A stretch of 22,383 bases of DNA from a virus. A program made the translations under genes and the position numbers. Where the stretch lies: positions 1 to 22,383 of the IMG/VR virus record IMGVR_UViG_3300025769_000929, one strand, 5' to 3'. Positions 1-20,565 of the stretch are shown here, in pieces. The stretch's first letter is position 1, and every line of letters starts with the position of its first letter. The notes beneath the pieces were generated by a model. The model did no database searches, had not been told where the DNA came from, and was given only the letters and a program-made list of their open reading frames with translations.

Positions 1-14
1 CAGTAAAGGTGCAA

Positions 15-81
15 GGCTAACTGATGAGACCTGATTGGTCGAAACCATCTTTTTTCCCCGCGAATCGAGATGGTCTTAGTC
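15..81 (+). ncRNA. Type I hammerhead ribozyme, copy 1
   Basis: All conserved parts of a hammerhead self-cleaving ribozyme are present in order. Stem I is GGCTAA (15-20) with TTAGTC (76-81). The core CTGATGA (21-27) is followed by stem II GACC/GGTC (28-31/37-40) around loop TGATT, core GAAA (41-44), and stem III CCATCT/AGATGG (45-50/68-73). The T74-C75 cleavage dinucleotide puts predicted cleavage after C75. Stems II and III are closed and stem I is open, so this is type I. The stem III loop is long (51-67) and pyrimidine-rich, unlike the tetraloops of copies 2 and 3. Stems II and III differ in sequence from the other copies yet pair fully, which is covariation support. The ribosome binding site and start codon of the next gene lie just downstream. 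Confidence 0.95.
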
Positions 82-107
82 AAACAAAATTAGGAGGGAC
101 TATGAAA
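76..107 (+). repeat. Post-cleavage leader with RBS, copy 1 (identical to 540-571)
   Basis: These 32 bases begin exactly at the predicted ribozyme cleavage site and run through the first two codons of the next gene. They are identical to 540-571. They hold the 3' strand of stem I, an A-rich spacer, the Shine-Dalgarno AGGAGGG (92-98) and the ATG at 102. A related but diverged leader follows ribozyme 3 (1003-1032). After cleavage this would be the 5' end of the mRNA, carrying a 5'-hydroxyl. Confidence 0.85.
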
Positions 108-494
108 GCATTAAACAAAAGAATAGAACAAGCAATAGCAACAAGAATGGAGCCTAAAGGATGGGGTGAGAACCCTGACGAACTAGTCAAAACAAACTCA
201 GGTCAAATTCATGTCACACCAAAAGAACTGGACAAGATTATTAGAATGCAGAAATGTATTAGTGTTTGCGTTTACATTAAGACTGATGGATATACAAAAG
301 AGTCTATCGATGAGGATAAGTATTATCCAAATGTCTTTACCAAATATTTGACCATAACCAAAAAACAAGCAAAAGAAATTGTAAAAGATATGATCAAAGA
401 TGCTGAAGAATATTCAAGCAAGGAAGACAAGCTTATCGAAATTAGATTATCTGCTTGGTGGTCAGATGATGGGCGTTTCTCGCTAAATTTCTAG
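102..494 (+). CDS. Hypothetical protein, 130 aa, downstream of ribozyme 1
   Basis: I do not recognise this protein. The frame is open upstream to 24, but those codons lie inside the hammerhead ribozyme. The ATG at 102 follows AGGAGGGAC at ideal distance, so it is taken as the start. The product is charged, with a lysine/glutamate-rich helical middle (KKQAKEIVKDMIKDAEEY) and a C-terminal segment with paired tryptophans (SAWWSDDGRFSLNF). No signal peptide or membrane segment is seen. The TAG stop (492-494) shares its last base with the first base of ribozyme 2, so gene end and ribozyme are physically fused. It is probably an accessory gene of the rightward early-type cluster. Confidence 0.85.
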   Translation: MKALNKRIEQAIATRMEPKGWGENPDELVKTNSGQIHVTPKELDKIIRMQKCISVCVYIKTDGYTKESIDEDKYYPNVFTKYLTITKKQAKEIVKDMIKDAEEYSSKEDKLIEIRLSAWWSDDGRFSLNF

Positions 495-545
495 GCTAAC
501 TGAAGAGCTCTCAATGAGCGAAACTCCCTACGGGGAGTCTTAGTC
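494..545 (+). ncRNA. Type I hammerhead ribozyme, copy 2
   Basis: Stem I is GGCTAA (494-499) with TTAGTC (540-545). The core CTGAAGA (500-506) has A at the position where any base is allowed. Stem II is GCTC/GAGC (507-510/516-519) with loop TCAAT, followed by core GAAA (520-523). Stem III is CTCCC/GGGAG (524-528/533-537) closed by a UACG tetraloop of the very stable UNCG class. The cleavage dinucleotide is T538-C539, so cutting is predicted after C539. The first base is the G of the TAG stop of the upstream gene. Stem III differs completely from copies 1 and 3 but pairs perfectly. Confidence 0.96.
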
Positions 546-571
546 AAACAAAATTAGGAGGGACTATGAAA
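540..571 (+). repeat. Post-cleavage leader with RBS, copy 2 (identical to 76-107)
   Basis: This is an exact 32-base match to 76-107, starting at the predicted cleavage position of ribozyme 2 and ending two codons into the next gene. It contains the stem I 3' strand, an A-rich spacer, AGGAGGG and ATG at 566. Exact identity of a non-coding leader next to unrelated genes suggests either selection on the leader or a recently copied cassette. Confidence 0.85.
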
Positions 572-955
572 AACTTAAATACTAAAACTGATGCCCAAGA
601 ATCTTGGGAAAGAGAAATGGTTATTGCTACTGAGATAATGGGCAAGGCTGAACAACAGGGAGCAGATGTTCTTGAATTTGGGGACACTAACTTCTTGAAC
701 TATGTTGAGCTCAAAAGATCATTTCATGAGCAAGCCATGGACATGGTCAAGTGGATCACCAAGGAACTATCCAAGGATCATGGTCTAGTTGAAGACTATG
801 CTTACTTCATGGATAAGGGCTACACCATCAACAAACCAGATAGATGGGATTATAGATCAGCAGTCTTTGGTGATCTTAAAGAAGCTATCCAGAATAATGC
901 TGAGTACGATGTTTATGAGATCGTGCAGAAGTGGGATATGTGGTATCACTCTTAG
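566..955 (+). CDS. Hypothetical protein, 129 aa, between ribozymes 2 and 3
   Basis: I do not recognise this protein. It starts at the ATG eight bases after AGGAGGG in the ribozyme-derived leader. It is acidic and aromatic, with many tryptophans in the C-terminal half (PDRWDYRSAVFGDLKEAIQN, then QKWDMWYHS), and looks globular and mainly helical, without membrane segments or a cysteine cluster. It shares only MK.LN with the start of the previous gene, so the two are not obvious duplicates despite their identical leaders. The TAG stop (953-955) overlaps the first base of ribozyme 3. The 91-residue overlapping frame at 789-1064 runs through ribozyme 3 and is a shadow. Confidence 0.88.
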   Translation: MKNLNTKTDAQESWEREMVIATEIMGKAEQQGADVLEFGDTNFLNYVELKRSFHEQAMDMVKWITKELSKDHGLVEDYAYFMDKGYTINKPDRWDYRSAVFGDLKEAIQNNAEYDVYEIVQKWDMWYHS

Positions 956-1008
956 GCTAACTGATGAGCTCTCAATGAGCGAAACTGCCAGCAATGGCAG
1001 TCTTAGTC
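955..1008 (+). ncRNA. Type I hammerhead ribozyme, copy 3
   Basis: Stem I is GGCTAA (955-960) with TTAGTC (1003-1008). Core CTGATGA (961-967) is followed by stem II GCTC/GAGC (968-971/977-980) with loop TCAAT, core GAAA (981-984), and stem III CTGCCA/TGGCAG (985-990/995-1000) capped by a GCAA tetraloop of the GNRA class. The cleavage dinucleotide is T1001-C1002, so cutting is predicted after C1002. Stem II and its loop are identical to copy 2, while stem III is different and fully paired. The stop codon of the upstream gene again overlaps the first base. Confidence 0.97.
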
Positions 1009-1029
1009 AAACAAACCAAAGGAGGGAAT

Positions 1030-1155
1030 ATGACTTACAAAGAAGAGATAGCAAAAAGGAATAGGGCTACCTATATTACTTTTGCTTTAATCATGGCAAC
1101 ACCAGTTGTCTTATCAATTTGGTTAGCAATAGCCTTAACTAACGGAGGGCAATAA
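1030..1155 (+). CDS. Small single-pass membrane protein, 41 aa, downstream of ribozyme 3
   Basis: A 41-residue frame begins at ATG 1030, six bases after GGAGGG, in the diverged leader of ribozyme 3. The N-terminal 13 residues are charged (MTYKEEIAKRNRA). A continuous hydrophobic stretch at residues 15-37 (ITFALIMATPVVLSIWLAIA) is a clear membrane helix, and the tail is short (NGGQ). The final codons carry the GGAGGG ribosome site of the next gene, and TAATG joins the two. The function is unknown. Small one-helix phage proteins can be holins, spanins or superinfection-exclusion factors, but nothing here decides between them. Confidence 0.75.
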   Translation: MTYKEEIAKRNRATYITFALIMATPVVLSIWLAIALTNGGQ

Positions 1156-1448
1156 TGGATATTAATACTTTTGTAGAAAGATATAAGCCTATTGATAATC
1201 ATCAATCAAATGATCACAGCTACTTCTCAGAAGATGATCAAGAGAAAGCTTTTGAGACTTATGGTGAAGAGCTTGATTTTGTTTTACAGCAAGACAATAG
1301 ATATGTCTGGACTATCTTAGATGATGGCACTGTTCAGAATGGCTACTGGCTTGTCAATAGACTTGCTTATCTTGTATGTGAAAACAAGTGGGAGCTTGAT
1401 AGAGGGCATATGGAATTTAGTTTATATGAGGAGGGTGACAATGGATAA
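1155..1448 (+). CDS. Hypothetical acidic protein, 97 aa
   Basis: The ATG overlaps the TAA of the membrane protein (TAATG) and sits behind GGAGGGC, so the two are translationally coupled. The product is acidic and aromatic, with a stretch around residues 45-70 that looks like a beta hairpin (NRYVWTILDDGTVQNGYWLV) and an acidic end (SLYEEGDNG). No family is recognised. The end of the gene overlaps the next start by 8 bases, and its GAGGAGGGTGAC supplies the next ribosome site. Confidence 0.85.
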   Translation: MDINTFVERYKPIDNHQSNDHSYFSEDDQEKAFETYGEELDFVLQQDNRYVWTILDDGTVQNGYWLVNRLAYLVCENKWELDRGHMEFSLYEEGDNG

Positions 1449-1623
1449 TTTCACAGCTGTAGGTATTGCAGAGGGATTCATCCCAGCTGATCATGAGGAT
1501 CAAGTTAGAGAGGCATGGCAACACTTAGTTGACACTGGTCTGGCTTGGCAACTTCAAGGCTGGTTTGGTAGAACTGCAATTAATTTAATAGAACAAGGTT
1601 TAATAACACAAGGAGGTGAATAA
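1441..1623 (+). CDS. Small conserved phage-type protein, 60 aa
   Basis: The start is ATG 1441, preceded by GAGGAGGGTGACA. The longer frame from 1321 lacks a ribosome site and runs deep inside the previous gene. The segment EAWQHLVDTGLAWQLQGWFG followed by RTAINLIEQGLI reminds me of a short domain often annotated as unknown function in phage and plasmid proteins, with a tryptophan-rich turn and a C-terminal helix. That likeness is from memory and was not searched. It is probably a small helical binding protein. Its last codons carry the GGAGGTG site of the next gene. Confidence 0.85.
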   Translation: MDNFTAVGIAEGFIPADHEDQVREAWQHLVDTGLAWQLQGWFGRTAINLIEQGLITQGGE

Positions 1624-1862
1624 TGAGCCTACATAATCAGAACTCTAAATTTGTTTCTTACTTTCTAGATTTTTATCGTGATAGTGGAGATGACATAACA
1701 CCCCTAGAGGCGTGTAAATATACAAAAATGTATAAAACAAATTTTCCTAATCTTTGGGGCGGTGGAGACAGCCTAGACAGAGAAAAGGTTTATGAATTAT
1801 TTTTAATGGGTAGGGCAGATGCTATTACCAAAGAAGTCAAACAAATCAGGGGGGTGAAATAA
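1623..1862 (+). CDS. Hypothetical protein, 79 aa
   Basis: It starts at ATG 1623 within TAATG behind GGAGGTGAA. It is mixed charged and aromatic (NSKFVSYFLDFYRDSGDDIT, then CKYTKMYKTNFPNLWGGGDS) with a helical C-terminus. No known domain is recognised. The last codons (GGGGGGTGAAATAATG) double as the ribosome site and start of the next gene, the same junction design seen at 2023 and 2486. Confidence 0.82.
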   Translation: MSLHNQNSKFVSYFLDFYRDSGDDITPLEACKYTKMYKTNFPNLWGGGDSLDREKVYELFLMGRADAITKEVKQIRGVK

Positions 1863-2023
1863 TGAAAAGGGTTGAAATAAAATTAATTGTAGATGTGGAT
1901 GTGACTGATGAAATGGTTTGTCCCAGTGGTGATCATTTAGAAGAAAACTGCGTATTGAATGCAGTCAACAATGATTTTTTTATGAATAATGTTGAAATAT
2001 TAAAAGTACAGGAGGTGAAATAA
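1862..2023 (+). CDS. Hypothetical small acidic protein, 53 aa
   Basis: A 53-residue frame from ATG 1862 (TAATG overlap) to TAA 2021-2023. The first residues alternate hydrophobic and charged (MKRVEIKLIVDVDVTDEMV), typical of a beta strand pair, then come a cysteine-containing turn and a short amphipathic helix with a final strand (NNDFFMNNVEILKVQ). It may be a small alpha/beta domain of about one ferredoxin-like half. The function is not recognised. The C-terminal QEVK is encoded by the CAGGAGGTGAAA ribosome site of the next gene. Confidence 0.78.
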   Translation: MKRVEIKLIVDVDVTDEMVCPSGDHLEENCVLNAVNNDFFMNNVEILKVQEVK

Positions 2024-2307
2024 TGACAACAGAAAATTTACAAGAATTGCAAAAGCAATTCAAGAAAATGAAAAAGACATACATTTTAGAATGTCATACA
2101 AAATATGGGGTTGATTATAAATTATTTAAACTAGAAAAAAGCCCTACTAAAAAACAAAGTAAATATTTGCATGATTTTTGGCAAAGAGAATGTGCAGAAA
2201 TGTTTGGCATGACTTTAAAAGAAATAAAAGAAGATGATCGAATATTTACTGAATGGTACGGGGAAGGTCTTGGAAAACCAATCGGAACAATACCAAGTGC
2301 ATTATAG
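2023..2307 (+). CDS. Hypothetical basic protein, 94 aa
   Basis: It starts in a TAATG overlap behind AGGAGGTGAAA. It is lysine-rich in the first two thirds (LQKQFKKMKKTYILECHTKY), then has a region with KEIKEDDRIFTEWYGEGLGK and a proline-containing tail. It is predicted helical, with no cysteine pairs or membrane segments. No family is recognised. The gene is followed by an 11-base gap holding AGGAGGTGCAACA and the next ATG. Confidence 0.83.
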   Translation: MTTENLQELQKQFKKMKKTYILECHTKYGVDYKLFKLEKSPTKKQSKYLHDFWQRECAEMFGMTLKEIKEDDRIFTEWYGEGLGKPIGTIPSAL

Positions 2308-2318
2308 GAGGTGCAACA

Positions 2319-2486
2319 ATGAAAACAATAAATAAAAACATAAGAAGATGTCTAGATCGCATACACGAAATTGATCTTGAGTATGACAAGAAGTTTGACA
2401 AGCTTGACTCTGAAAGAATCAAAAAGGTACAAGTTTATTTTGACTTGATTCGTGAAGAACAAAAGAAATTACAGGAGGTGAAATAA
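2319..2486 (+). CDS. Short coiled-coil protein, 55 aa
   Basis: The start is ATG 2319, eight bases after AGGAGG. The frame open from 2253 lies inside the upstream gene and has no ribosome site. The whole product reads as one or two charged helices (IRRCLDRIHEIDLEYDKKFD, KLDSERIKKVQVYFDLIREE) with hydrophobic residues at heptad-like spacing, so a dimeric coiled coil is likely. The function is unknown. Its last codons, ending QEVK, are again dictated by the ribosome site of the next gene. Confidence 0.78.
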   Translation: MKTINKNIRRCLDRIHEIDLEYDKKFDKLDSERIKKVQVYFDLIREEQKKLQEVK

Positions 2487-2986
2487 TGAGTGCGTTTTTA
2501 TGTAATGCTGATCATATAGGTGAGATGAGTAAGTTCTTTGCTAATGGTAGTGTGCCAATGGCTAGTGATGATCTTGTGACTCATGCCTATAACATGGTGA
2601 CTAGGGAGAAGATTTCTTTTTCTTCCCCGCAAGAGGCGGCTGAGATATTAGCCAGAGAGAATATCAAAAGCTTGCAGGCTAGATATCCAGATAGCTGGAA
2701 GGGTTTCTTTACATGGAACCCTGAAGGCAAGGATGGCGAGTTTGATGAGAGTATGATCCTACTCTTTGTTAATCAATGCCAAGCTAAGACCAAAGGATAT
2801 CCTAGGGTCAACAAGAAGGAGCTCTACGGCATGATCAGTTGCTACAGGTACCAATCCTGCGAGGATGATAACTGGGTCCAATCTGATGCTTACTGGTTGA
2901 CTCAAAACTTGAAGGATATTGTTTCCAGAAAGCTTATTGGTGATGTTGATATGTGGGAATATAAAGCAGAGGAGGATGTTGCATGA
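2486..2986 (+). CDS. Conserved phage/plasmid-type protein, 166 aa
   Basis: It is the largest protein of the left gene cluster. The N-terminus (MSAFLCNADHIGEMSKFFAN) and the late segment containing SCYRYQSCEDDNWVQSDAYW remind me of a family of unknown function in phages, plasmids and proteobacterial chromosomes that starts with MSAF and has a late CYxYQSCE motif. That likeness is from memory and untested. Two nearby cysteines in CYRYQSCED could bind metal or be redox active. It starts in TAATG behind AGGAGGTGAAA and overlaps the next gene by 4 bases (ATGA). No membrane segment is seen. Confidence 0.9.
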   Translation: MSAFLCNADHIGEMSKFFANGSVPMASDDLVTHAYNMVTREKISFSSPQEAAEILARENIKSLQARYPDSWKGFFTWNPEGKDGEFDESMILLFVNQCQAKTKGYPRVNKKELYGMISCYRYQSCEDDNWVQSDAYWLTQNLKDIVSRKLIGDVDMWEYKAEEDVA

Positions 2987-3264
2987 TTATTGATGGAAGT
3001 TTTGAGTTAGACTTTGTTGACAAAGGAACGCCACACTATGGCATGAGCACTGACTACGATGGGTTCGAACCTTTCTGGGAGGTTCAGTACCTAAGCAATG
3101 GCAATCTGTGGACAGGAAGCAAACAAGACTGCATTGAATGGATGGCTGAGCATTACATAGATCATTTCAATGAAGAGTCAAACACTGAAGCTGAGGCTGA
3201 AAAAAAATCTTTAGCTTGGGTCAATAAGTGTTTGAAAAAAGCTGAAGCAGAGGAGGTGGCGTAA
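2983..3264 (+). CDS. Hypothetical acidic protein, 93 aa
   Basis: It overlaps the previous gene by 4 bases and has GAGGAGGATGTTGC as its ribosome site. The protein is acidic and rich in aromatic residues in its first half (YGMSTDYDGFEPFWEVQYLS), with a charged helical second half full of Glu, Ala and Lys. No family is recognised. The DNA at 3061-3072 (GGGTTCGAACCT) looks like a tRNA T-loop but encodes part of this protein. The C-terminal EEVA is encoded by the next ribosome site. Confidence 0.83.
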   Translation: MIIDGSFELDFVDKGTPHYGMSTDYDGFEPFWEVQYLSNGNLWTGSKQDCIEWMAEHYIDHFNEESNTEAEAEKKSLAWVNKCLKKAEAEEVA

Positions 3265-3593
3265 TGGTAAAGTTATGTTTAGCTTCAGTGTCTGGCGATA
3301 TGTCAAAATTTGGCATAAGTTCTACCAACAAGATCATACCAATAGATTGGAAAGATAGGCACAGAATAGTAAAGTTCTTAGATGCCCAGAACAAAAGAGA
3401 AATTGCACATATGGTTTGTTCAGACTTTGGAAGCTCTGTTGTTCAAAATAGGTCTAAAAAGTTTTGGAAGCTTTTTCATGAACTTAAAGACTCTGGTGTT
3501 TTTTCTTGTAAGTGGGATGCCAGAACAGTTTGGAGCATGGAATACTATTATGAAGACGAGCTTCAAAACTACGAACCATGGGAGGTGGCGTAA
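3264..3593 (+). CDS. Hypothetical protein, 109 aa
   Basis: It starts in TAATG behind GAGGAGGTGGCG. The protein is mildly basic with an amphipathic helical middle ([20 protein letters not shown]) and an aromatic, acidic end ([20 protein letters not shown]). I see no zinc site, signal peptide or membrane helix and do not recognise it. Overlapping frames on both strands at 3382-3666 are shadows. Its last codons provide GGGAGGTGGCGTAATG for the zinc-ribbon gene. Confidence 0.83.
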
Positions 3594-3739
3594 TGACTTG
3601 TTCAGAATGTGGCGGCAACTCCAGAGTTGTAGATGTACGCAAGTATGTTGACGGATCAGTTAACAAACGCAGACGGGAATGTCTGGTATGTAAAAGAAGG
3701 TTTACTACATACGAGGAGGAGTATAAAAAGAAAAAGTAA
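3593..3739 (+). CDS. Orphan NrdR-type zinc ribbon protein, 48 aa
   Basis: The product has the four-cysteine zinc ribbon of the NrdR repressor: CSEC at residues 3-6 and CLVC at 30-33, followed by [11 protein letters not shown], with the typical basic strand RRREC before the second pair. Full NrdR (about 150 residues) adds an ATP-cone that senses dATP/ATP and represses ribonucleotide reductase genes. Here the protein ends right after the ribbon, so only DNA binding is plausible. It starts in TAATG behind GGGAGGTGGCG and is the last gene before the terminator. It may act as a phage regulator, or compete with host NrdR to relieve repression of dNTP synthesis. That role is inference. Confidence 0.82.
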
Positions 3740-3752
3740 CCTATGATTTGAA

Positions 3753-3782
3753 GAAGCGGGGTAATTACTCCGCTTTTTTTTG
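3753..3782 (+). terminator. Intrinsic terminator of the left gene cluster
   Basis: Stem AGCGGGG (3755-3761) pairs with CTCCGCT (3768-3774) with one G-T pair and loop TAATTA. It is flanked by AA on the 5' side and followed by a run of eight T. It lies 15 bases after the stop of the zinc-ribbon gene, as expected for the end of the plus-strand transcript. On the minus strand the hairpin is followed by TCTTC, a much weaker U tract. Confidence 0.9.
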
Positions 3783-8396: not shown

Positions 8397-9027
8397 GTCT
8401 CCTCTCTATAATTGCGTCAAACTGGTTAATCCCTAGCATTGTTCCAAGTGTTGGCTTTCCATTCCAAAAAGATCTTATCCATTTCTTATGACCTTCTGAG
8501 TTAGCTATTTCAAAATATGCTTCCCAAAAATCATTTGATGTGAAATCTATTTTTCTCCCCGTTTTAGGAGAGACATATCCTTTTTTTGATTTAGCTATTT
8601 CTTTTAGTTTTTTATAAGGCACTACATATTTGTGAGCGTTTTGTGAATGAACATAAAATGCTTGATCACATTTGCTTTTAAAAATTTCATTTATCAAATC
8701 AATATCTAATATAAATTCATTTTTAGTATAAGCTTTAGTATTGTAGCCACCTCCCGACCCCCCATAGGCGTCTGCCGACCCCCCTAGTATTTTGTAATAA
8801 TTGCTAGTATTTTTTCTTTGGTCCCATTCTATGTGACCCATGTCTCTAAGTTTCTTTAGATTATCTTTTATAGCTGTGAGGGAAAGCCCAGTAAGTTCAG
8901 TCAACTTTTTATGGGAGGGATAAGAACAACCAAACTCATCTGAGTAATTAGCCAGAACAATAAGCAATAGCTTTTGTGTTGAATTAACCTCAACCCGTAA
9001 AACTTTTGTAATGTATTCAAGCGACAT
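8389..9027 (-). CDS. Phage replication initiator (O-like), winged helix, 212 aa
   Basis: The N-terminal 80 residues form a winged helix-turn-helix (STQKLLLIVLANYSDEFGCS, then PSHKKLTELTGLSLTAIKDN and LKKLRDMGHIEW). A Gly/Ser linker follows (residues 82-94, GGSADAYGGSGGGY), then a C-terminal domain ending in RSFWNGKPTLGTMLGINQFD, which resembles the PTLxWLL..xNF end of phage replication initiators that recruit helicase. It starts at ATG 9027 behind GAGGG and is the first gene of the leftward operon. By analogy to lambda O it may bind repeats inside its own gene (8754-8813). Family placement is by pattern, not by search. Confidence 0.85.
   Translation of the reverse strand: MSLEYITKVLRVEVNSTQKLLLIVLANYSDEFGCSYPSHKKLTELTGLSLTAIKDNLKKLRDMGHIEWDQRKNTSNYYKILGGSADAYGGSGGGYNTKAYTKNEFILDIDLINEIFKSKCDQAFYVHSQNAHKYVVPYKKLKEIAKSKKGYVSPKTGRKIDFTSNDFWEAYFEIANSEGHKKWIRSFWNGKPTLGTMLGINQFDAIIERRHG
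8754..8813. repeat. Paired direct repeats inside the initiator gene, candidate origin
   Basis: Two direct repeats sit back to back: CCGACCCCCC at 8754-8763 and 8775-8784, spaced 21 bases, then CTAGTATTTT at 8784-8793 and 8804-8813, spaced 20 bases. Both spacings are about two helical turns. The GC-rich pair encodes the Gly/Ser linker of the initiator, and the AT-rich pair follows at once. A GC-rich iteron-like pair next to an AT-rich pair inside an O-like gene matches the logic of the lambda origin. Codon repetition in a glycine linker could explain the first pair on its own. Confidence 0.45.
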
Positions 9028-9046
9028 ATTTTTCCCTCACTTGCGT

Positions 9047-9108
9047 ATATTAACTTTAATTATTAATCATTGTAAAGTATTGTTTTTAAATTAATAAAAG
9101 TTTACAAT
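9047..9108. promoter_or_regulatory. Divergent promoter/operator region
   Basis: This intergenic region separates the leftward replication operon and the rightward recombination operon. An 8-bp perfect inverted repeat, ATTGTAAA (9069-9076) and TTTACAAT (9101-9108), flanks an AT-rich core. A rightward promoter may use TTGTAA (9070-9075) and TAATAA (9092-9097, 16-base spacer). A leftward one may use TTTACA (complement of 9071-9076) and TAATAT (complement of 9047-9052, 18-base spacer). The left half-site is therefore part of both -35 candidates, so one dimeric repressor could control both directions. The composition is AT-rich, so chance matches are possible. Confidence 0.5.
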
Positions 9109-9125
9109 TCATGCAGGAGGTTTAT

Positions 9126-9749
9126 ATGAGTAATCAAAAAATATATACAGCACTTAAAAATGTGCAAAACTACATGTATCAAAACCCAATTGCAAAAGAG
9201 GGCGTTAATACATTTCAAAAATATAAATACAGGGGTATTGATCAGATCATACAATCTTTTTCAAAACCACTGCATGACAATAATGTTCTAACTTTGGTTC
9301 AGCCTGATCTTAAGGTATCAACTAAATTTCTAGATGATGGTAGATCAACATTAACTAGAATTGTTGGAACCCTTAGATTTATTTGTACTGAAGATGGTTC
9401 TTTTGTAGATAGGTCTTATGTGGGACACAGTAAGTCCCAACAGGGAAAAGATTTAGAATCTGCAAGATCTTTTGCATATCGTAACGCACTGTTAGAAACA
9501 TTCTGCGTACCCTTTGAGGGAGTGGTTGAGCCTGAGCTTGAAGGAATTGATCAGAGCTTTCCGGCGGAAGAGGAAGATGAAACAACAAGCATGGTTGAGG
9601 ACTTTACTAAAGAAATTAAAGCATGTGCAAACAAGGAAAAAGCAAAAGAAATTTATAAAAAGTATGAAAAGGTAGCCAACCTTAGTGGTGACGATGAAAC
9701 CAAGAAGCAACTTATACTAGCTTTTACAAAGGTTTATAAAAATGATTAA
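9126..9749 (+). CDS. erf: Erf-family single-strand annealing protein, 207 aa
   Basis: The protein anneals complementary single strands in phage recombination. The N-terminal Erf-type core is clear: KIYTALKNVQNYMYQ, then NTFQKYKYRGIDQIIQSFSK and a beta-rich segment, followed by GHSKSQQGKDLESARSFAYR, the usual Erf helix with a central lysine. The C-terminal part is an acidic linker (EEEDETTSMVEDFT) and a charged helix. The frame is open from ATG 9111, but AGGAGG (9116-9120) lies after that codon and six bases before ATG 9126, which decides the start. It is the first gene of the rightward operon, overlapping the exonuclease gene by 8 bases. Confidence 0.93.
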   Translation: MSNQKIYTALKNVQNYMYQNPIAKEGVNTFQKYKYRGIDQIIQSFSKPLHDNNVLTLVQPDLKVSTKFLDDGRSTLTRIVGTLRFICTEDGSFVDRSYVGHSKSQQGKDLESARSFAYRNALLETFCVPFEGVVEPELEGIDQSFPAEEEDETTSMVEDFTKEIKACANKEKAKEIYKKYEKVANLSGDDETKKQLILAFTKVYKND

Positions 9750-10680
9750 GCAAGGAACGCCTGAGTGGCATGATCAAAGAAAAAATAGAATTACAGGAAC
9801 GAGGCTACCTCGTGCCGTTAAAGAGTGTATGTGGGCAAAAGGAGACCAATGGGAGGCTTTAGGTAGAGATATCTACAGAGAGGCTCACAACCTGTCTCAG
9901 GACCCTTTTGATCAAAGAGCTATGTTTGCAATAACATATGGTAGTGACCACGAGCCAGTTGCTTTAGAACAATTAAAAAGCATGGGCTACAAAATTACAC
10001 AACCATCTTTTGTTGTGCATCCAAAACATGATTGGTTGGGAATGTCTCCAGATGGAGTAATTGTTTCTGGTAGAAATGGAAAAGTTTCTGCTGTAGAAAT
10101 TAAATGCCCACAAACAAAGCCCGTCAAAAATGTACAAGAACAAAAAAGAAACTATTGGCATCAAATGCAAATGGGTATGGAGTGCATGGATATAGATGAA
10201 ATGTTGTTTTTTCAATGGTATGAGCATGAACACTATCAAGAATGGGTTGAAAGAGATCCTAGATGGGCTGATATATATATACCAAAAGCAAAAGAATTTA
10301 TGGATTGGTATGCAGATGCGTCTAAAGATCCAAAATATATTGCTATGTGGTCAGAAACAAAACAAGAACCAGGAGTCAACTACAAACCTGTTGATGATGA
10401 TGACAATACATCACAATTAGCAGATGTACTTACCGAACTAAATGAGCTTAACGAAAGGAAAAGCTTGCTTGATAAAAGAAAGAAAGAACTTTCTGCCGAG
10501 GCTGTAAAAAAGCACGGAGGAGCATTTAGTACCTCAAGAGTGAAATGTCATATGACACAAGCTAGGGGTCGAATAAACTACGCCAGACTGGTAAAGGATC
10601 AGGATATTCCTTTTGACATTATGGAAGGCTATAGGTCAGAGGGCGACACCAGAATTTATACCAAACTACTGGAGGAATAA
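9742..10680 (+). CDS. YqaJ-like (lambda-exonuclease type) recombination nuclease, 312 aa
   Basis: This 5'-3' exonuclease would make single strands for the Erf partner. It starts QGTPEWHDQRKNRITGT, the typical YqaJ opening. The catalytic PD-(D/E)XK residues are visible: E71 in GSDHEP, D104 in MSPDGV, E119-x-K121 in VEIKCPQ, and Q143 in HQMQMGM. The C-terminal third is a charged helical extension (ELNELNERKSLLDKRKKELS) and a basic segment that might contact the annealing protein. It overlaps the Erf gene by 8 bases, the usual synaptase/exonuclease pair. Confidence 0.95.
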   Translation: MIKQGTPEWHDQRKNRITGTRLPRAVKECMWAKGDQWEALGRDIYREAHNLSQDPFDQRAMFAITYGSDHEPVALEQLKSMGYKITQPSFVVHPKHDWLGMSPDGVIVSGRNGKVSAVEIKCPQTKPVKNVQEQKRNYWHQMQMGMECMDIDEMLFFQWYEHEHYQEWVERDPRWADIYIPKAKEFMDWYADASKDPKYIAMWSETKQEPGVNYKPVDDDDNTSQLADVLTELNELNERKSLLDKRKKELSAEAVKKHGGAFSTSRVKCHMTQARGRINYARLVKDQDIPFDIMEGYRSEGDTRIYTKLLEE

Positions 10681-12522: not shown

Positions 12523-13319
12523 AAACATTAACTGACGCAATTAAACAATATTATAGATTTAATAAAATGGGTAAGAATGATTTTACCTATAGAAAATACT
12601 TTGAGCCATTGTTTGAAAACATGGACATTAAAGATATTACTAAAGAACAAATAGCTGCGGCTAGATCTGGTATTCAAGGAGCACCAGGAACAGTCAACAG
12701 ATATTTAAACTACTTCCGTGCAATACTTATGTATGCATATGAAGAGTTAGGGTGGTTGGACACTAAGCCCATTATAAAAAGAGTAAAAGAGTCCCCTAAA
12801 AGAAATAAATATTTTACTCTTGAAGATATAAAAAAATTGCAAAAAGAGCTTCCCCCTCATTTGCAGAAACCATTTATATTTTCACTCCTCACTGGGGTTA
12901 GAATGTCCAACTGCTTTAATCTTAAATGGGCAGACATAAAACAAGATCAGATATCAATAGATGGAACTGAGACTAAAAATGGTAGAGGCTTATCAGTGCC
13001 TTTGAATGCTAAATGCAGAGAGCTCTTAGAATCAATTGATAGGTCTAGCCCTTATGTTTTCACCTATGCTGGTAGAAAAATGAACAGAGCTTCTAACACG
13101 GCTTGGTATAGTGCATTAGATAGAGCTGGTCTTAATGGATTTAGATGGCATGACATCAGACATACTTGGGCTACTCACCATGTACAAAACGGTACTCCTT
13201 TACATACGTTACAACATCTTGGTGGGTGGTCCGACTTCAATATAGTAAATAGGTATGCACACCTATCAAAAGATTATTTAAGCGATGCTTGTGAGGCAAG
13301 TAATACTCTGATATCTTAG
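12519..13319 (+). CDS. int: Tyrosine recombinase, phage integrase, 266 aa
   Basis: The enzyme integrates and excises phage DNA at att sites. The N-terminal part (about residues 1-90) is a SAM-like core-binding domain (TYRKYFEPLFENM, then GAPGTVNRYLNYFRAILMYA). The catalytic domain shows R128 in LLTGVRMSNCFNLKW, K153 in ETKNGRG, H211-x2-R214 in HDIRHTWATH, W237 in LGGWSDF and nucleophile Y246 in NRYAHLS. It is short, lacking an arm-binding N-terminal domain like that of lambda Int. It makes this phage potentially temperate. No repressor gene of classical type is seen in the window. Confidence 0.96.
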   Translation: MKTLTDAIKQYYRFNKMGKNDFTYRKYFEPLFENMDIKDITKEQIAAARSGIQGAPGTVNRYLNYFRAILMYAYEELGWLDTKPIIKRVKESPKRNKYFTLEDIKKLQKELPPHLQKPFIFSLLTGVRMSNCFNLKWADIKQDQISIDGTETKNGRGLSVPLNAKCRELLESIDRSSPYVFTYAGRKMNRASNTAWYSALDRAGLNGFRWHDIRHTWATHHVQNGTPLHTLQHLGGWSDFNIVNRYAHLSKDYLSDACEASNTLIS

Positions 13320-13392: not shown

Positions 13393-16300
13393 TTAATCTC
13401 TTCCAATAATTGGTCTTGCTAATTTGTTAAACTCTTGATGTAGCTCATTTCTTTTGCGTTCAATATCATTGATTATGTCAAAATATTTTAATCTATCTTT
13501 GTCTTTAAGTTTTTCAGCAAGTCTTTCTCTTTCATTTAATTTTCTTAATTGTGTTTCAAATTTGCTTAATTTTTTATCTAACACTAAGTATTCATTTTTA
13601 AAATTTCTTCTAGATTTAAAATCTTCCAATCCTTTTTTATCACCCTTGTCCATATATGATTTGTAACTAGTTACCAATCCTTTGCCTGGTTTGTCAGGTG
13701 TTCCCCTTAATAATTCCTTGTATCTATAAAATTCTATTGCATCAGTATAATTTTCTGGCTCTGCTGTAAAGATTCTTCCAAACGGTATTTCATTCAAAGT
13801 TACATCTCTGTTTATTCCCTGTGATACATCTACTGCTTTTTCTATTCCGTTATAAGATCTTTCTGCTGTTGTATACATTCCCCCAAGATATGACTGTAAT
13901 AAATATTTAATAACATCTGGGCTGATATTTATTGATCCAGGATCTGCTTCTCCACCTCCCTCAATTCCAAGGGCTGGTAGGTCTACTTGATTTAACATTT
14001 TAGTAAAGTCTCTGTAAAACTCTTCCGTGTTTTTAAGTTTGGTGGATGATATTGGTAGCTTGCTTCCAAAGTATTGTTCTTTATATACAGGTGCTCCCGT
14101 CCACTTTTCGTTTATATAAACATCAAAAACTGGTTTAATAAATGAAGGCACTGCTGTTTTTCCTAGATCTACGCTTTCTCCACTGTATGCAATACCTACT
14201 GGAGAAAATGCACCAACAGCAATACCGCTTATGTCCTTGGCAAATTCAACACCAGATCTTCTTTCATAACCAGCTATGTCTTTTGTAGCTGTTTCCATAC
14301 CCATTCTTCCCATGTTAAAGAAAATATTGTATCCATAAGGAAGAGGTATTGTTACAGCTACTGGCTTCCCATTAACTTTATAAGTTCTTGTTTCCCTATC
14401 ATATACTGGTTTGCCTCTAGACCTCTTAACACCAGGCAGCATTATTATAAGATTTCTTTCTTGTTCATGTTGTGGAATCTTATCAATAAATAGTTTTCCA
14501 TCTTCATCTTCCCCAGAAACCAGGGTGTTATACAGGGCAACCAAACCTCCAAAGCCTACCCCTCCAGACATAACATATTTTTTCGCTTTTGATATAGGTT
14601 GATATTTCATTTTTCCATTTGAATCAAACCTAAAAGGAACCATGCCTCTGAAAAAATTAACATTACCTTGAACAGCTGCGTTTGCAAAAACATAAAAAGC
14701 ATTTACATAAGGTCCAAGCCTTCCAGATCTATTGAAGTTAATTGTTAGGTTTTTAGCTAAATTTGCTGCGTTTGCTATATCTGTTTTACTTGCTTTATCA
14801 ATACCACCAGATTCTTTTACAAAAGATTTAAACACCGCAAATCTAGATGCATTTTCTGCAACATTGTTGACGCTCTCTACAAATCTTGCGGTTGAGTTAA
14901 AAATTTTAACTGGGTTTAGGGGTATTCCGTCATGTGCTTTTGATAATGTAAGCATTTCTTTTTGTATTTGATCTACATCTTTTGCATTTACATAACCAGT
15001 TTGACCTCCATTTTCTAAGAATGCTCTAAAATATTTAAAAGCCTCTGGATCTGTTTCTTTTAGTCTATCAGTTACATAACCATGTCTAAGCTCTCTTAGT
15101 GTTTTTACCATTGATTTTGGATTTAGTGCACCTTTTAATTGTTTACCTAAAGCTCTGCCATCTGCAATTTCTTTTTCAGCTAGTAAATTAAAATAACCAG
15201 TCTGATAATCCCTAGTAAAGTTAGTAACAACAAACTCTGGTGAGTAAGATGTATATAGAGCAGACAAGGTGCTAGTTATCCCACGCATTAATCTTATAAA
15301 AGGATTCATGGTCTGATTACCAAACTCATCCAAACCTCTTGCAAGTCTTTCATCTTTTATAACTAAAAACTTAGTCTTACCTTCTTCTTTAAAAGGTATT
15401 AAAGATTTTTCTCCATCCCATTTATGTGGCTTTTCAAACCTTTGGGCTCCTTTTATGTCCCATATATTTTTAGATGGGAACTGTCTTACTAGTGAAGCTA
15501 ACTCCTTGTTGATTTCATTTCTTTCCCCGAGCACAGCTGCTTCAGATCTTCTTAATATTGCTTGCTCTAATGGATTTCCAGCCTCAGACTTTCTACCTTT
15601 AGCTTCTGGAATGATTGATCCATACAAAGATCTGCCGCCACCCTTTGGCTCAGGCTTACTGCTGTCTATAGTGTCAACAGCAAAACCTACCAAGGGAACA
15701 TAGTATTGATAATTAGCATTCCAATCAGCAACAGTTTCTTCACTTACTAGATCATTCTCAATATAAGATTGTCTTGTTTTATTTTGGTATGCATTAAGTA
15801 TATCAAAAGCTTTTAAAAGATTTTTACCCATTTCGTTACTAGGTTTAGCAACATCATTATCTGGATTGTATTCAATACCCATTTCATTAAGGGTGGTAAC
15901 TGCTTGATCAGTAGAAATACCAGATCCACTATCCTTGTACTTATTTAGTACATTTTCTCTTTTGGTTATCTGTCCTTTAATAACAGGAATTCTTTTTGCA
16001 TCAGTTTCTTCTTCTAATTGTTTTCTTAGCCCTGGTAATTCTTGTTCGTACTTAGAGTTTATAAATTTATTTCTTTCTGGTGCGTGTAGATTTTTTAGAA
16101 ACTGGTTAAACTCAGCTTCTTTTATATTGGAGCTTTTTAAAAATTTTAATAAACCATCTACTTCTTTTACAGCATCGTCTAGTTTTGTTTTTACTTTTCC
16201 GTAGAAAGTATCAGTAGATCTAATAATATCAAGATCTTTCATACCTTCTGGCAAATATGGTTTTAGTTTACCCATAAAACCTTTAAGCCTATCAAGCTTA

Positions 16301-19300
16301 TCTACAGCTAGCTCTTGTATGTTTGAATATTGTCTAAATAAAAAGGATGAATCTCCTTTTGTAAGCATGGACCCTATGTCGGGTACTTGAACTGTTTCAG
16401 AAAGATCTACTGGTTCTTGGATTCTTCTTTCAATTCTTGTTGTTGTGATTCCTGGGTCTCTATAGATTGAGTTGATTGATTCATCTCTTGTCCATCCATA
16501 TTTTTCTGAGAGGGTTGTGTCGACTTCATCAATTCTTGGTTGTAACTCCCTGACGATATCACGAACCTTTTCTTGAAGATCGGGTCGTCCTTCGAGGCTA
16601 GTTTGCGGGTAATTTTCACCATTTTTATTCTGACTCCAGTCATTTGTCACATAGCCAAGAGCGGATCCTGCTTCTATGACTTCTATATTACTTGCTAATT
16701 CTACCTCATTTAATACCTTGTCTACAAGTTTTGAAAATTGTATATTGTTGATACCATCCTCTTGTGCAAAATTTATAAATCTTACACCTTTGGGTGCTGG
16801 TATTGGATTTAAATAGTTTTTTCCAGAAACCTTTTCCATAGCATCGGCTAGCGACTGTATCTCTTCATTTGTAACCTGTCTTCCTATTCTTGCTTCATGT
16901 ATGTTTCTTTTAGATTTTGGAATGTTTGTTTGGTAAAAAGGCTTGTGATATCCAACAGCATCTTGTTTAAATAAAATTCCATACACAGAAGCATAAGCTT
17001 TAATAAGGTCTTCTGCCTCTGGCTGTATTACCTGATCTTTTGTCTTTCTTGCTTGTGGAACTGCTATTTCTATTTGAGTTCCAGGACTCAACTTGCCTTC
17101 GTAATATCCTGGTGCTTCAAACATTCCTGGCGACAATATGCCAAGCCTTTGGGCTATTATGTCATTACCATCTTGATCTAATATAGCTTTAGATGCATTT
17201 ACGTGATATTCCTGAACTTGTTCATAAGGTGCTTCAAACATTTCATTCATATGATTGTTTGTTCTTCCTGGTATAGTTTCTGTGCTTATTTGACCAAGAT
17301 TTTTTTGAATAGCATCTGAAAAATTAAAGCCAGCTTCTACTACCTCTGTCCCTTCCTCTCTTGCTTTCCCCGCAACCCATGCGGCTGCTTGAACTTGCTG
17401 TGGCTCCCAGCCTATTTCATCAGCAATTTTATTTATCTCTTCTTCTACAAATCTATACTCTGTTATGTTTACAGTGTCTTTACCGTATCCAAATAAACGC
17501 ATCATCCATAGATCAACAGTAACTCCTTGTGCTCTACTTGGATCAATAACACGCATTAAATTATTGTAAAACTTATCTGTTTTCTTACCCTTCCACTCTT
17601 GCCCACCAAAGGCTTGCTCTAACTTTTTGCTCATTTCTTGCGGGTATCTTCCAGTTTCTATGGGCTGACCTGCTTTGTATTGATAATAGGCTTGTAATGC
17701 AAAAGTTGTATTAACATCTACACTTGTGCTTGGTGATGTAATTGCGATTGCTTGTGCTAACTTGTCTGCGTCTTCTATGTTGTTGTTAGTTATGTCTAGG
17801 ATGGCTTTACTGCTTTCTTCATACCAGAATCTATTTGGCTCACCCTCTTTGACAAGACCTTTTACTTTTCTTCTTAAGGCACCAACTTTTCTTTGATTGT
17901 CTACTCCAGGAGGAGCTCCAACTATTTTTGGTAACTCAGATCGAATACGGTCCCTGTCTTCTGCTGTGGTCTCAACTTCCAACTCGCTTGTGGGCTGTTG
18001 CTCCTGATCGACTGATCTAGCAGAGATATCAGCTCCTCTTCTGGGAGGAACTTCAATACTTCTAGGGGCACGGGATGATTGAAAAGCCTGTAATACTCTT
18101 GCATTTTTTTCTCTAAGGCTGTCAACTGATATTGCATCATTTAATCTCTCTATAAGTGCGAATGTTTCTGGAGCATTTTCTCTCAAGAAATCTCTATTAG
18201 TATAATATAAAGAATACATTTGTGCGAATGTCTCAGCCTTAATTGTACTCATCAGGTTTTCATTTAATGTATTCATCTCAAAATATGACATAAGCTGACT
18301 TAAAGGATACCTAAGCATTGCTCCCTCGTGGTGTGCTTGTGGTTTATTAATATGAATGTTTAACGCTTCCATCATAACAGCACCACCGTCTGGGTCTGTT
18401 ATTTGTAGCAAATTAGATCCATCTGCAACCATATCAATATTGTTTAAATTTGGAATATTAAACAGTGGAGATGTGGAAGATGCTGGTGTATATATTTGAT
18501 AGCTTGACTTCATGTCTCTACCTAAACCAAAATCAATATGATGAGAAAGCTCGTGAACAAAAGTGTGTGTAAGCTGTGTCTTTGCCCCAAGCTGACTTGT
18601 GTAGTCAGATGTTTTCAAACCAATAAATGGGTTTAGTGCAATAGATTGTGTGGCAGGCTCATAAACGCCAAATGCTTGCACACCCTCTTGAGGGTCTACA
18701 GATTCAACACCTATATATCTAAGATCTGTAAATATGTCTAGCGGCATACCCATATTTAATAAGTCTATTGTTGCTTTGGATAAGTTATTTGATTCATCTA
18801 GACTAAGATCTCTAGTATTTCCAAGTCTTCTTGTATATATTTCTCTTGGTAATTGACCAAATTCTGGAATATTTTTTAATGTTCCTTCGTGAAATCTTCT
18901 TGGAAAAATAATTCTATTTCTAACAATGTCTAGCTCATCTTGATTGTATGTGTCATTTCTTATGATAGAGTTTTCTGGTAAGCCTTTTGTTTCCTCAAAC
19001 TGCATACGCACTGTTTGGTTATAGGCTTTGCTGTCCTCTTTCATTTCCTCGCCAACAATAAAGTTTTTTACTTGTTTTGTCTCTTTTGATAAAGGATCTA
19101 TAAAAGAAAAATCTTTAAAGTTTTCTGGAAACTTTTCATTTACCTGATTAACAATTCCTTCTTGTTTTTCTACCGCTATTCTTCCCTCTACTGGGTCTTC
19201 TAATCTTATAAAGTTGGTGTTTAAAAATGAGTCAGCCAAAAGCTCTTCTGCTGTAACTCCAGAAGTATAATTAGGATCTAATATATTTATAGTTGCTTTA

Positions 19301-20565
19301 TCTATGGCTTCATAATTTAAACTAGAGTTATTTACCATAGCATTAAAGTTTTCTATAAACTCATTAAGTGCTGGGTTATCTTTATTTTGTTTTATATAGT
19401 TGGTTATCTCAGGAGAATACATAACCTCTCCCGTAGTTCTAATAGATGATATAGATCCTGATGCTATTAATGAAGCAAGAAAAGAATGTCCAGCGACATC
19501 TTGTAATACTTGAGCCATGCTTGGACCCTCATATAGTGGATTGTTCCTATTGTCATAAGCTGTTCTTAAGTCTGACTCTAAGTCAAACATAGCTGTATTG
19601 ACCTCTTGTAAAACACCATTTATAACTTCCATACTGGTATCGGTTGCAACATCTACAAAACCATTTTGCATAATTTCTTTTGCAGTTTTGTTGCCTACTG
19701 GTCTTAAATATCTGAACACAGGCAATGCTTCGGTTCCAACTTCTAACAAGCCCTGTATATTTCCATAAGCTAAGGATGTTTTGTGATCCTTTCCTTGTCT
19801 TTTTGCTTCTGCGTAACTTACAGCCTGAGTTTGGAGTCCAAAATAACCAAGTGTTGTTGTCGCTGTTGGAGCTGTTAACCTTCCCCCGCTTAAACCGTTT
19901 GCTACCATTGCTGTTGTAATTACAGCCATTGACTCTAATCCACTAGATACTGTCCTTCCGTATTCTCCAAGATTTGAATCACTTTGTCTTTTGTTTATTT
20001 TTTTATTAATGTCAGCAATTGCTTTTTGTGTGTCCCTTCTTAAACCTTGCATTTCTTTTTCGTCTGCAAGTTTTTCTTCTTCTGACATTTCTGCATATCT
20101 CTTTGCCATAAATGCCTGCCCAAAATGATCATAACCCCCACCAGCACTTATTGGTAATTGAGTTGTTGTTTCACCCTTTAATTGAGAAAAAGCGTCTTCG
20201 GCAGCCTGTTCTTTCCAAGACTCCCACATTATCTTTGAGCGATCTATTAAATTTGCGGGTACATCTCTTGCTGCATCCATGGTGTATCTTAAAGTTTCAA
20301 AAAATGCATCTGGGTATCTTTGATCAGCCTCAAAGTTATAAGCCATGATAGGCTTAACTGTTGTTTCTGCCGCTATTTCAGCAGCTCTTAGTTTTAAATT
20401 TGTAGGTGAACCAATACCTTTAAGAGGGTTTATCCAATTAAAATCTTCTGCGGTTTTTTCTTGTATAGGCTGTTCAGGATCTTTTTGATCTTCTTCTTCC
20501 TCAATCAAAGGATCTGGTATTTTAATTCCCGCTAAAGGATCATCATATCTAAATTCTTGTGCCAC
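13393..20565 (-). CDS. Giant polyvalent virion protein, 2390 aa, with metallopeptidase motif and LPD38/PLxRFG-like region
   Basis: It starts at GTG 20565 behind AGAGG, one base after the upstream stop. Regions in order: an acidic start. A Gly/Ala-rich stretch near residues 200-300 (ITTAMVANGLSGGRLTAPTA, then YGNIQGLLEVGTEALP), of the kind seen in ejected virion proteins. A zinc-peptidase motif HELSHH at 671-676. A helical domain around 920-1080 with VTVDLWMMRLFGYG and VQAAAWVAGKA. Then, from about 1780, VTNFTRDYQTGYFNL, and NLAKNLTINFNRSG near 1940, typical of large polyvalent proteins (LPD38/PLxRFG type). Next come a hydrophobic stretch near 2005, IPFGRIFTAE, and a C-terminal coiled coil. 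It is probably packaged and injected with the DNA, like T7 gp16. Confidence 0.9.
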   Translation of the reverse strand: MAQEFRYDDPLAGIKIPDPLIEEEEDQKDPEQPIQEKTAEDFNWINPLKGIGSPTNLKLRAAEIAAETTVKPIMAYNFEADQRYPDAFFETLRYTMDAARDVPANLIDRSKIMWESWKEQAAEDAFSQLKGETTTQLPISAGGGYDHFGQAFMAKRYAEMSEEEKLADEKEMQGLRRDTQKAIADINKKINKRQSDSNLGEYGRTVSSGLESMAVITTAMVANGLSGGRLTAPTATTTLGYFGLQTQAVSYAEAKRQGKDHKTSLAYGNIQGLLEVGTEALPVFRYLRPVGNKTAKEIMQNGFVDVATDTSMEVINGVLQEVNTAMFDLESDLRTAYDNRNNPLYEGPSMAQVLQDVAGHSFLASLIASGSISSIRTTGEVMYSPEITNYIKQNKDNPALNEFIENFNAMVNNSSLNYEAIDKATINILDPNYTSGVTAEELLADSFLNTNFIRLEDPVEGRIAVEKQEGIVNQVNEKFPENFKDFSFIDPLSKETKQVKNFIVGEEMKEDSKAYNQTVRMQFEETKGLPENSIIRNDTYNQDELDIVRNRIIFPRRFHEGTLKNIPEFGQLPREIYTRRLGNTRDLSLDESNNLSKATIDLLNMGMPLDIFTDLRYIGVESVDPQEGVQAFGVYEPATQSIALNPFIGLKTSDYTSQLGAKTQLTHTFVHELSHHIDFGLGRDMKSSYQIYTPASSTSPLFNIPNLNNIDMVADGSNLLQITDPDGGAVMMEALNIHINKPQAHHEGAMLRYPLSQLMSYFEMNTLNENLMSTIKAETFAQMYSLYYTNRDFLRENAPETFALIERLNDAISVDSLREKNARVLQAFQSSRAPRSIEVPPRRGADISARSVDQEQQPTSELEVETTAEDRDRIRSELPKIVGAPPGVDNQRKVGALRRKVKGLVKEGEPNRFWYEESSKAILDITNNNIEDADKLAQAIAITSPSTSVDVNTTFALQAYYQYKAGQPIETGRYPQEMSKKLEQAFGGQEWKGKKTDKFYNNLMRVIDPSRAQGVTVDLWMMRLFGYGKDTVNITEYRFVEEEINKIADEIGWEPQQVQAAAWVAGKAREEGTEVVEAGFNFSDAIQKNLGQISTETIPGRTNNHMNEMFEAPYEQVQEYHVNASKAILDQDGNDIIAQRLGILSPGMFEAPGYYEGKLSPGTQIEIAVPQARKTKDQVIQPEAEDLIKAYASVYGILFKQDAVGYHKPFYQTNIPKSKRNIHEARIGRQVTNEEIQSLADAMEKVSGKNYLNPIPAPKGVRFINFAQEDGINNIQFSKLVDKVLNEVELASNIEVIEAGSALGYVTNDWSQNKNGENYPQTSLEGRPDLQEKVRDIVRELQPRIDEVDTTLSEKYGWTRDESINSIYRDPGITTTRIERRIQEPVDLSETVQVPDIGSMLTKGDSSFLFRQYSNIQELAVDKLDRLKGFMGKLKPYLPEGMKDLDIIRSTDTFYGKVKTKLDDAVKEVDGLLKFLKSSNIKEAEFNQFLKNLHAPERNKFINSKYEQELPGLRKQLEEETDAKRIPVIKGQITKRENVLNKYKDSGSGISTDQAVTTLNEMGIEYNPDNDVAKPSNEMGKNLLKAFDILNAYQNKTRQSYIENDLVSEETVADWNANYQYYVPLVGFAVDTIDSSKPEPKGGGRSLYGSIIPEAKGRKSEAGNPLEQAILRRSEAAVLGERNEINKELASLVRQFPSKNIWDIKGAQRFEKPHKWDGEKSLIPFKEEGKTKFLVIKDERLARGLDEFGNQTMNPFIRLMRGITSTLSALYTSYSPEFVVTNFTRDYQTGYFNLLAEKEIADGRALGKQLKGALNPKSMVKTLRELRHGYVTDRLKETDPEAFKYFRAFLENGGQTGYVNAKDVDQIQKEMLTLSKAHDGIPLNPVKIFNSTARFVESVNNVAENASRFAVFKSFVKESGGIDKASKTDIANAANLAKNLTINFNRSGRLGPYVNAFYVFANAAVQGNVNFFRGMVPFRFDSNGKMKYQPISKAKKYVMSGGVGFGGLVALYNTLVSGEDEDGKLFIDKIPQHEQERNLIIMLPGVKRSRGKPVYDRETRTYKVNGKPVAVTIPLPYGYNIFFNMGRMGMETATKDIAGYERRSGVEFAKDISGIAVGAFSPVGIAYSGESVDLGKTAVPSFIKPVFDVYINEKWTGAPVYKEQYFGSKLPISSTKLKNTEEFYRDFTKMLNQVDLPALGIEGGGEADPGSINISPDVIKYLLQSYLGGMYTTAERSYNGIEKAVDVSQGINRDVTLNEIPFGRIFTAEPENYTDAIEFYRYKELLRGTPDKPGKGLVTSYKSYMDKGDKKGLEDFKSRRNFKNEYLVLDKKLSKFETQLRKLNERERLAEKLKDKDRLKYFDIINDIERKRNELHQEFNKLARPIIGRD

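Follow-up and report, generated by a model that had tools for sequence, protein, structure and literature searches.

We found that a stretch of viral DNA of 22,383 bases (the entire virus record, called the window here) carries three type I hammerhead ribozymes at successive gene junctions (Table 1). They probably cleave in cis and would thereby split one early-type phage transcription unit into separate mRNAs. The virus is, judging by its sequence, a temperate-type tailed phage, with genes for a tyrosine integrase, a DnaB helicase, a replication initiator, an Erf-like annealing protein and a YqaJ/RecE-like exonuclease; no tRNA was found near the integrase. A third of the record (positions 13393-20565, minus strand) encodes a 2,390-aa protein with LPD38 and DUF7178 domains. 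A nucleotide search with window positions 1-1200 against named phages gave no match, nor did a search with the ORF 2 protein; when hammerhead 2 with its leader was compared with named phages at E up to 10, the top matches listed, to Lactococcus phages, fell in the leader and ORF part and not in the ribozyme.

Table 1. Features of the hammerhead region of the window (cleavage sites and products are predicted; covariance model E-values are rough for the tool used)
Feature	Position	Strand	Basis or remarks
Hammerhead 1, type I	15-81	+	Covariance model 62.5 bits, E 7.8e-14; fold; shuffles
Stem I of hammerhead 1	15-20/76-81	+	
Core CUGAUGA of hammerhead 1	21-27	+	
Hairpin II of hammerhead 1	28-40	+	
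GAAA of hammerhead 1	41-44	+	
Hairpin III of hammerhead 1	45-73	+	Followed by U74 and C75
Predicted cleavage site 1, GUC^U	75/76	+	From structure
Leader of predicted 3' product 1	76-101	+	5'-OH-UUAGUCAAACAAAAUUAGGAGGGACU, 26 nt to ATG
ORF 1, 130 aa	102-494	+	PHROG 33541, weak match
Hammerhead 2, type I	494-545	+	Covariance model 73.0 bits, E 1.7e-16; fold; shuffles
Predicted cleavage site 2, GUC^U	539/540	+	From structure
Leader of predicted 3' product 2	540-565	+	Identical to leader 1, 26 nt to ATG
ORF 2, 129 aa	566-955	+	ORF listing, protein comparison
Hammerhead 3, type I	955-1008	+	Covariance model 66.6 bits, E 7.1e-15; fold; shuffles
Predicted cleavage site 3, GUC^U	1002/1003	+	From structure
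Leader of predicted 3' product 3	1003-1029	+	27 nt to ATG
ORF 3, 41 aa	1030-1155	+	Begins the part of the unit that has no ribozymes
Rest of unit, small genes	1155-3739	+	Without ribozyme; many overlapping stop/start codons, e.g. TAATG 1153-1157
Terminator-like hairpin	3750-3779	+	13 pairs and T tract; end of unit; same hairpin type as L125 12861-12890

In all three elements every position of the CUGANGA and GAAA core is intact, the NUH triplet at the predicted cleavage site is GUC, and the three stems, an open-ended stem I and the A15.1-U16.1 pair are present. Stem I (GGCUAA/UUAGUC, six base pairs including one G-U) is common to the three, stem II is GACC/GGUC in hammerhead 1 and GCUC/GAGC in hammerheads 2 and 3, and stem III has a different sequence in each. 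The presence of three complete hammerheads at the positions of Table 1, claimed in an earlier note made from the sequence, is thus confirmed, as are the identical stem I and the two forms of stem II. The three sequences of stem III also stood, but their perfect pairing did not, as an internal loop interrupts stem III of hammerhead 1 after seven contiguous pairs, one of them G-U. When excised, each element folds alone as a hammerhead, with z of about -3 relative to dinucleotide shuffles.

We analysed how far chance could account for such elements. The loose core pattern alone (CTGANGA followed by GAAA) is not significant, with 5 occurrences in the window and 2.5 expected, while a structural descriptor comprising the core and three stems had no match in 400 shuffles of the window. 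Over 1.23 Mb of retrieved loci the descriptor found 201 type I matches, versus 0.33 per shuffled set. A covariance model was built from 37 ribozymes after exclusion of all contigs for which shared sequence with the window had been detected; it matched exactly the three hammerheads and nothing else in the window. In the gap-free alignment of the 37, 11 of 16 pairs were changed on both sides, and the covariation score was 0.658, compared with 0.155 for shuffled and at most 0.087 for slid alignments. The members of this alignment were picked by a descriptor that demands pairing, which makes the percentage paired partly a matter of construction; the claim therefore rests on the excess over shuffles and on the held-out matches in the window.

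The core is the same as in the Rfam families RF00163 (Hammerhead_1), RF02275 (Hammerhead_HH9) and RF03152 (RAGATH-1-hammerhead). The Rfam search that the earlier note had proposed nevertheless came out negative, as no model reached its gathering score in the window. The best, weak matches at the three sites were to RAGATH-1-hammerhead, Hammerhead_1 and Hammerhead_HH9, at 15.6-23.6 bits. For RF00163 the best window score was 20.1 bits against a gathering cut-off of 34 bits, which is a database rule and not a property of the ribozyme class. The cultured-phage loci described below likewise gave no match at the gathering score, and 12 array loci (L080, L084, L104 and others) yielded 3 calls by Rfam versus about 50 by the descriptor or the model. 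Current annotation thus lacks sensitivity here: most of the class falls below the Rfam thresholds and is therefore also absent from phage annotation.

Relatives of the window ribozymes are numerous. A pattern scan of viral contigs gave at least 120 stretches, so the class is common there; other stem I sequences are under-sampled, because the pattern fixes the inner part of stem I. Applied to 84,980 bacterial and archaeal genomes, this pattern found 29 stretches. The model accepts 3 of them, which indicates that most are chance occurrences or other forms. About 200 related ribozymes were retrieved from viral contigs. The core, GUC and the exact six-base-pair stem I are kept in 186 of the 201 type I matches, and the cleavage triplet is GUC in 153 of 161 relatives, the others having GUA, UUC or UUA. 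Many loci hold arrays of 2 to 9 hammerheads. Terminase, integrase, DnaB and replication genes mark such same-strand clusters as lying in phage DNA. The largest array, in a 39.8-kb phage contig (G007; L080, L168 and L169), has 14 type I hammerheads on the minus strand between 10,942 and 35,330; this contig encodes a T7-like RNA polymerase, and one hammerhead lies directly before the polymerase gene. A related contig, L123, has at 9908-9980 a second ribozyme (57.5 bits with the model) with a 21-nt insert resembling stem III of the third type, which may be either a recombinant or an assembly artefact.

Single copies occur in the cultured Pelagibacter phages HTVC019P, HTVC131P, HTVC022P, HTVC304P and Jormungand, and in Flavobacterium phage elemoC. 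The Pelagibacter copies (L173 2947-3010, the position in HTVC019P, L175 2657-2702, L176 2296-2341, L177 2430-2475 and L178 5996-6059) sit between early small genes and a block of MarR-like regulator, integrase and RNA polymerase genes; in L175-L177 the stems are short, and these forms may be less stable. In elemoC (MT497067, ribozyme at 16950-17010; L174 5967-6074) the published annotation places a hypothetical protein, QMP84842.1, across the ribozyme on the opposite strand; it is probably a false gene.

The position of the ribozymes relative to genes is highly regular. Among 166 non-redundant relatives, a Shine-Dalgarno site and an ATG follow on the same strand within 60 nt of the predicted cut in 77% of cases, versus 8% for random positions and 0% in the opposite direction. 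The ribozyme starts at the end of an upstream ORF in 89%, versus 6% for random positions, and the median distance from predicted cut to start codon is 30 nt. The stop codon is often inside the ribozyme, as a TAG whose G is the first base, a UAA in stem I or a UGA in the core. The window follows the first of these forms twice: the G of the ORF 1 stop (TAG, 492-494) is the first base of hammerhead 2, and that of the ORF 2 stop (TAG, 953-955) is the first base of hammerhead 3. A Shine-Dalgarno site, AGGAGGG, lies between the predicted cut and the ATG in all three leaders. A hairpin of UAGUC with GACUA, between the 5' end and the start region, is possible in leaders 1 and 2, and is absent from leader 3 and from the leaders of L127 and L128. 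The frame of ORF 1 is also open upstream, through hammerhead 1 to an ATG at 24 (window 24-494, 156 aa), both in the window and in its relative L125; predicted cleavage would remove this start, and the open frame is probably due to chance.

Hammerhead 1 lies 15 nt from the contig end, and its upstream gene is visible only in relatives, in which the upstream search proposed by the earlier note was therefore made. The earlier note had suggested searching related phage contigs for junction arrays, and this search found, besides the further arrays described above, the same array in a 45.7-kb relative, L125, within one apparent transcription unit and in the order gene, ribozyme, gene, ribozyme, gene, ribozyme, remaining genes. 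There, an ORF at 8981-9442 ends directly before the counterpart of hammerhead 1. The first gene is preceded by a promoter-like site (TTGACA-16-TATACT, 8913-8940, 11 of 12 positions), and after the last gene of the unit comes a strong terminator-like hairpin (12861-12890); between the two, we found no comparably strong forward promoter-like site. The large terminase gene of L125 has at most 35% identity to those of named phages, with Roseobacter phage CRP-7 first.

Based on this arrangement, we propose that one polycistronic RNA would be transcribed from a single promoter and that each ribozyme would fold on emerging and then cut after its GUC, so that the first genes would end up on mRNAs of their own and the remainder on a single longer one. 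Each downstream mRNA would start with a 5'-OH and a leader of 26-27 nt with a strong Shine-Dalgarno site, and each upstream mRNA would carry the stem II/III fold directly behind the stop codon and terminate in a 2',3'-cyclic phosphate. RNAs with 5'-OH ends escape 5'-monophosphate-dependent RNase E, and resistance of the predicted ends to this enzyme is a reasonable inference. Cleavage would presumably be co-transcriptional and in cis in the infected cell, yielding monocistronic products of altered stability; the gain may be that translation and stability of individual genes are uncoupled. It may be speculated that, as the stop codon overlaps the ribozyme, a terminating ribosome would briefly cover stem I, with cutting perhaps occurring after termination. 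The earlier note had seen the likely role in the same way, as cutting of a polycistronic RNA at gene junctions that leaves stems II and III on the upstream piece, and the position, orientation and conservation of the ribozymes support it well. A relative of ORF 1 in L181 (5930-6002) also speaks for it: no ribozyme stands before this gene, which instead comes after a promoter-like TTGACA...TATAGC and a leader, AAGGAGGGAATATG.

Some observations, besides the Rfam scores below the cut-offs, count against such processing. The window ribozymes stand only at the first junctions of the unit: about ten further genes then follow that have no ribozyme in front, and their start and stop codons often overlap, so that the series of one ribozyme before each of several consecutive genes that the earlier note described holds for the first junctions but not for the later genes. 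In nearest-neighbour folding, the hammerhead folds of the three elements lie 0.5, 0.0 and 1.7 kcal/mol above the optimum when 40 nt of flank are included, and with 60-120 nt of flank stem I is often swapped for other pairings. Folding must therefore be local or aided by tertiary contacts. In favour of cleavage, two features that the search left free in the relatives, an A immediately outside stem I (146 of 161) and a conserved loop II of 5 nt, rich in A and U with U first, fit, together with the fixed six-base-pair stem I, the contact between loop II and stem I that fast hammerheads need, suggesting that one may form. ORF 2 homologues at about 50% identity have no ribozyme, which indicates that it is not needed for the function of the gene as such.

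It is also conceivable, though we think it unlikely, that the block of ribozyme plus leader is mainly a recombination joint, a repeat of about 90 bp through which phages could swap small genes by homology without ever losing a working stop, leader and start; this may be a role added to cleavage. Indeed, the ribozyme type that precedes ORF 1 stands before a relative of ORF 2 in L126, and the type that precedes ORF 3 stands before ORF 2 in L127. One stem III type (CCTTCTC...) is found before four unlike genes, in L127, L033, L045 and L061, and in L123 the types of hammerheads 2 and 3 are combined in a mosaic. The proteins downstream (n=155) belong to 91 families, of which 62 are singletons. Within a genome the stem I sequences are homogenised, with 38 of 66 neighbouring pairs fully cross-complementary versus 21% between genomes, and the window phage encodes its own annealing protein and exonuclease of the Erf and RecE kinds. 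A pure DNA joint, however, needs neither compensatory changes in all stems nor an invariant catalytic core and GUC, nor a consistent orientation on the same strand. We thus retain self-cleavage as the main reading, with the swapping of ribozyme types between unlike genes suggesting that the junctions are also recombination joints.

It is very improbable that the ribozymes are degenerate or inactive relics, or that their hairpins serve as terminators or as translation switches concealing the start site. The low Rfam scores and the competition of the flanks with the predicted stem I would fit such readings, but all catalytic positions are intact in the three window hammerheads and their relatives. 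No T tract follows the hairpins, and a scan gave no forward terminator-like site at them. Predicted accessibility of the Shine-Dalgarno site upon cleavage rises from 0.55 to 0.75 for hammerhead 1, with little or no change for the other two (0.62 to 0.65 and 0.71 to 0.71). Circularisation of the excised cistrons, through reverse ligation or an RtcB-like ligase joining the 5'-OH and 2',3'-cyclic phosphate, is hardly credible: since the three window ribozymes share stem I, the 5' end of an excised piece could pair at stem I with the ribozyme at its 3' end, but in other arrays 28 of 66 neighbouring pairs are not fully complementary, the opposite direction, which would be of no use, matches no less often (37 of 66) so that there is no directional signal, and Perreault et al. 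sought circular products and found none (PMC3088659).

Cutting of phage transcripts at gene junctions has a precedent in phage T7, whose early polycistronic mRNA is cut there by host RNase III into defined mRNAs with structured ends. The predicted process resembles it in the place of cutting, but here the RNA would cut itself with no host nuclease, and the predicted ends are 5'-OH and 2',3'-cyclic phosphate rather than 5'-phosphate and 3'-OH. In T4-type phages, mobile cassettes of a promoter and stem-loop are repeated between genes and are thought to mediate the shuffling of small genes; those cassettes supply a promoter, whereas the hammerhead cassette would supply an RNA cut.

The earlier note took a tandem series of hammerheads to be undescribed, which does not hold. 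In 2011, Perreault et al. described clustered hammerheads that flank single genes or short blocks in phage or prophage DNA, and already proposed that they make single-gene mRNAs from long transcripts; three tandem arrangements cleaved in vitro, and one of them, a triple from A. tumefaciens, also in E. coli (PMC3088659). A 2017 review noted that closely spaced hammerheads flank small ORFs and are linked to phages, and still called their prokaryotic roles open (PMC6155905). The clusters here resemble those in that two or more same-strand hammerheads in phage DNA flank single small genes whose identity varies. The arrays reported here differ in being uniformly type I with a six-base-pair stem I and in filling the junction from stop codon to leader, and in reaching 14 per contig, where the largest arrangement described in the accessible text of the 2011 paper is a triple. 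A uniform stop-to-start cassette, arrays of up to 14 and the swapping of types between unlike genes appear to be new, as none was found in the open-licence literature accessible to us.

With the predicted cut about 26-30 nt before the ATG and the upstream stop codon next to or within the ribozyme, the placement is uniform and allows the mRNA-processing hypothesis to be tested directly; cultured Pelagibacter and Flavobacterium phages, with a single copy each, could serve as bench systems. The type swaps and the 91 downstream families indicate that a gene is not tied to a ribozyme type. We infer that the cassette would give any inserted gene defined 5' and 3' mRNA ends, and that the repeat would ease exchange. 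More broadly, and as a tentative proposal that we hold with some doubt, a widespread phage group may divide its operons by ribozyme cassettes of one uniform stop-to-start form, with as many as 14 in a contig, such that self-cleavage, rather than extra promoters or nucleases, would set mRNA ends over a large part of a viral genome, and the cassettes, being near-identical within a genome, would double as joints for the exchange of small genes with stop, leader and start already in place.
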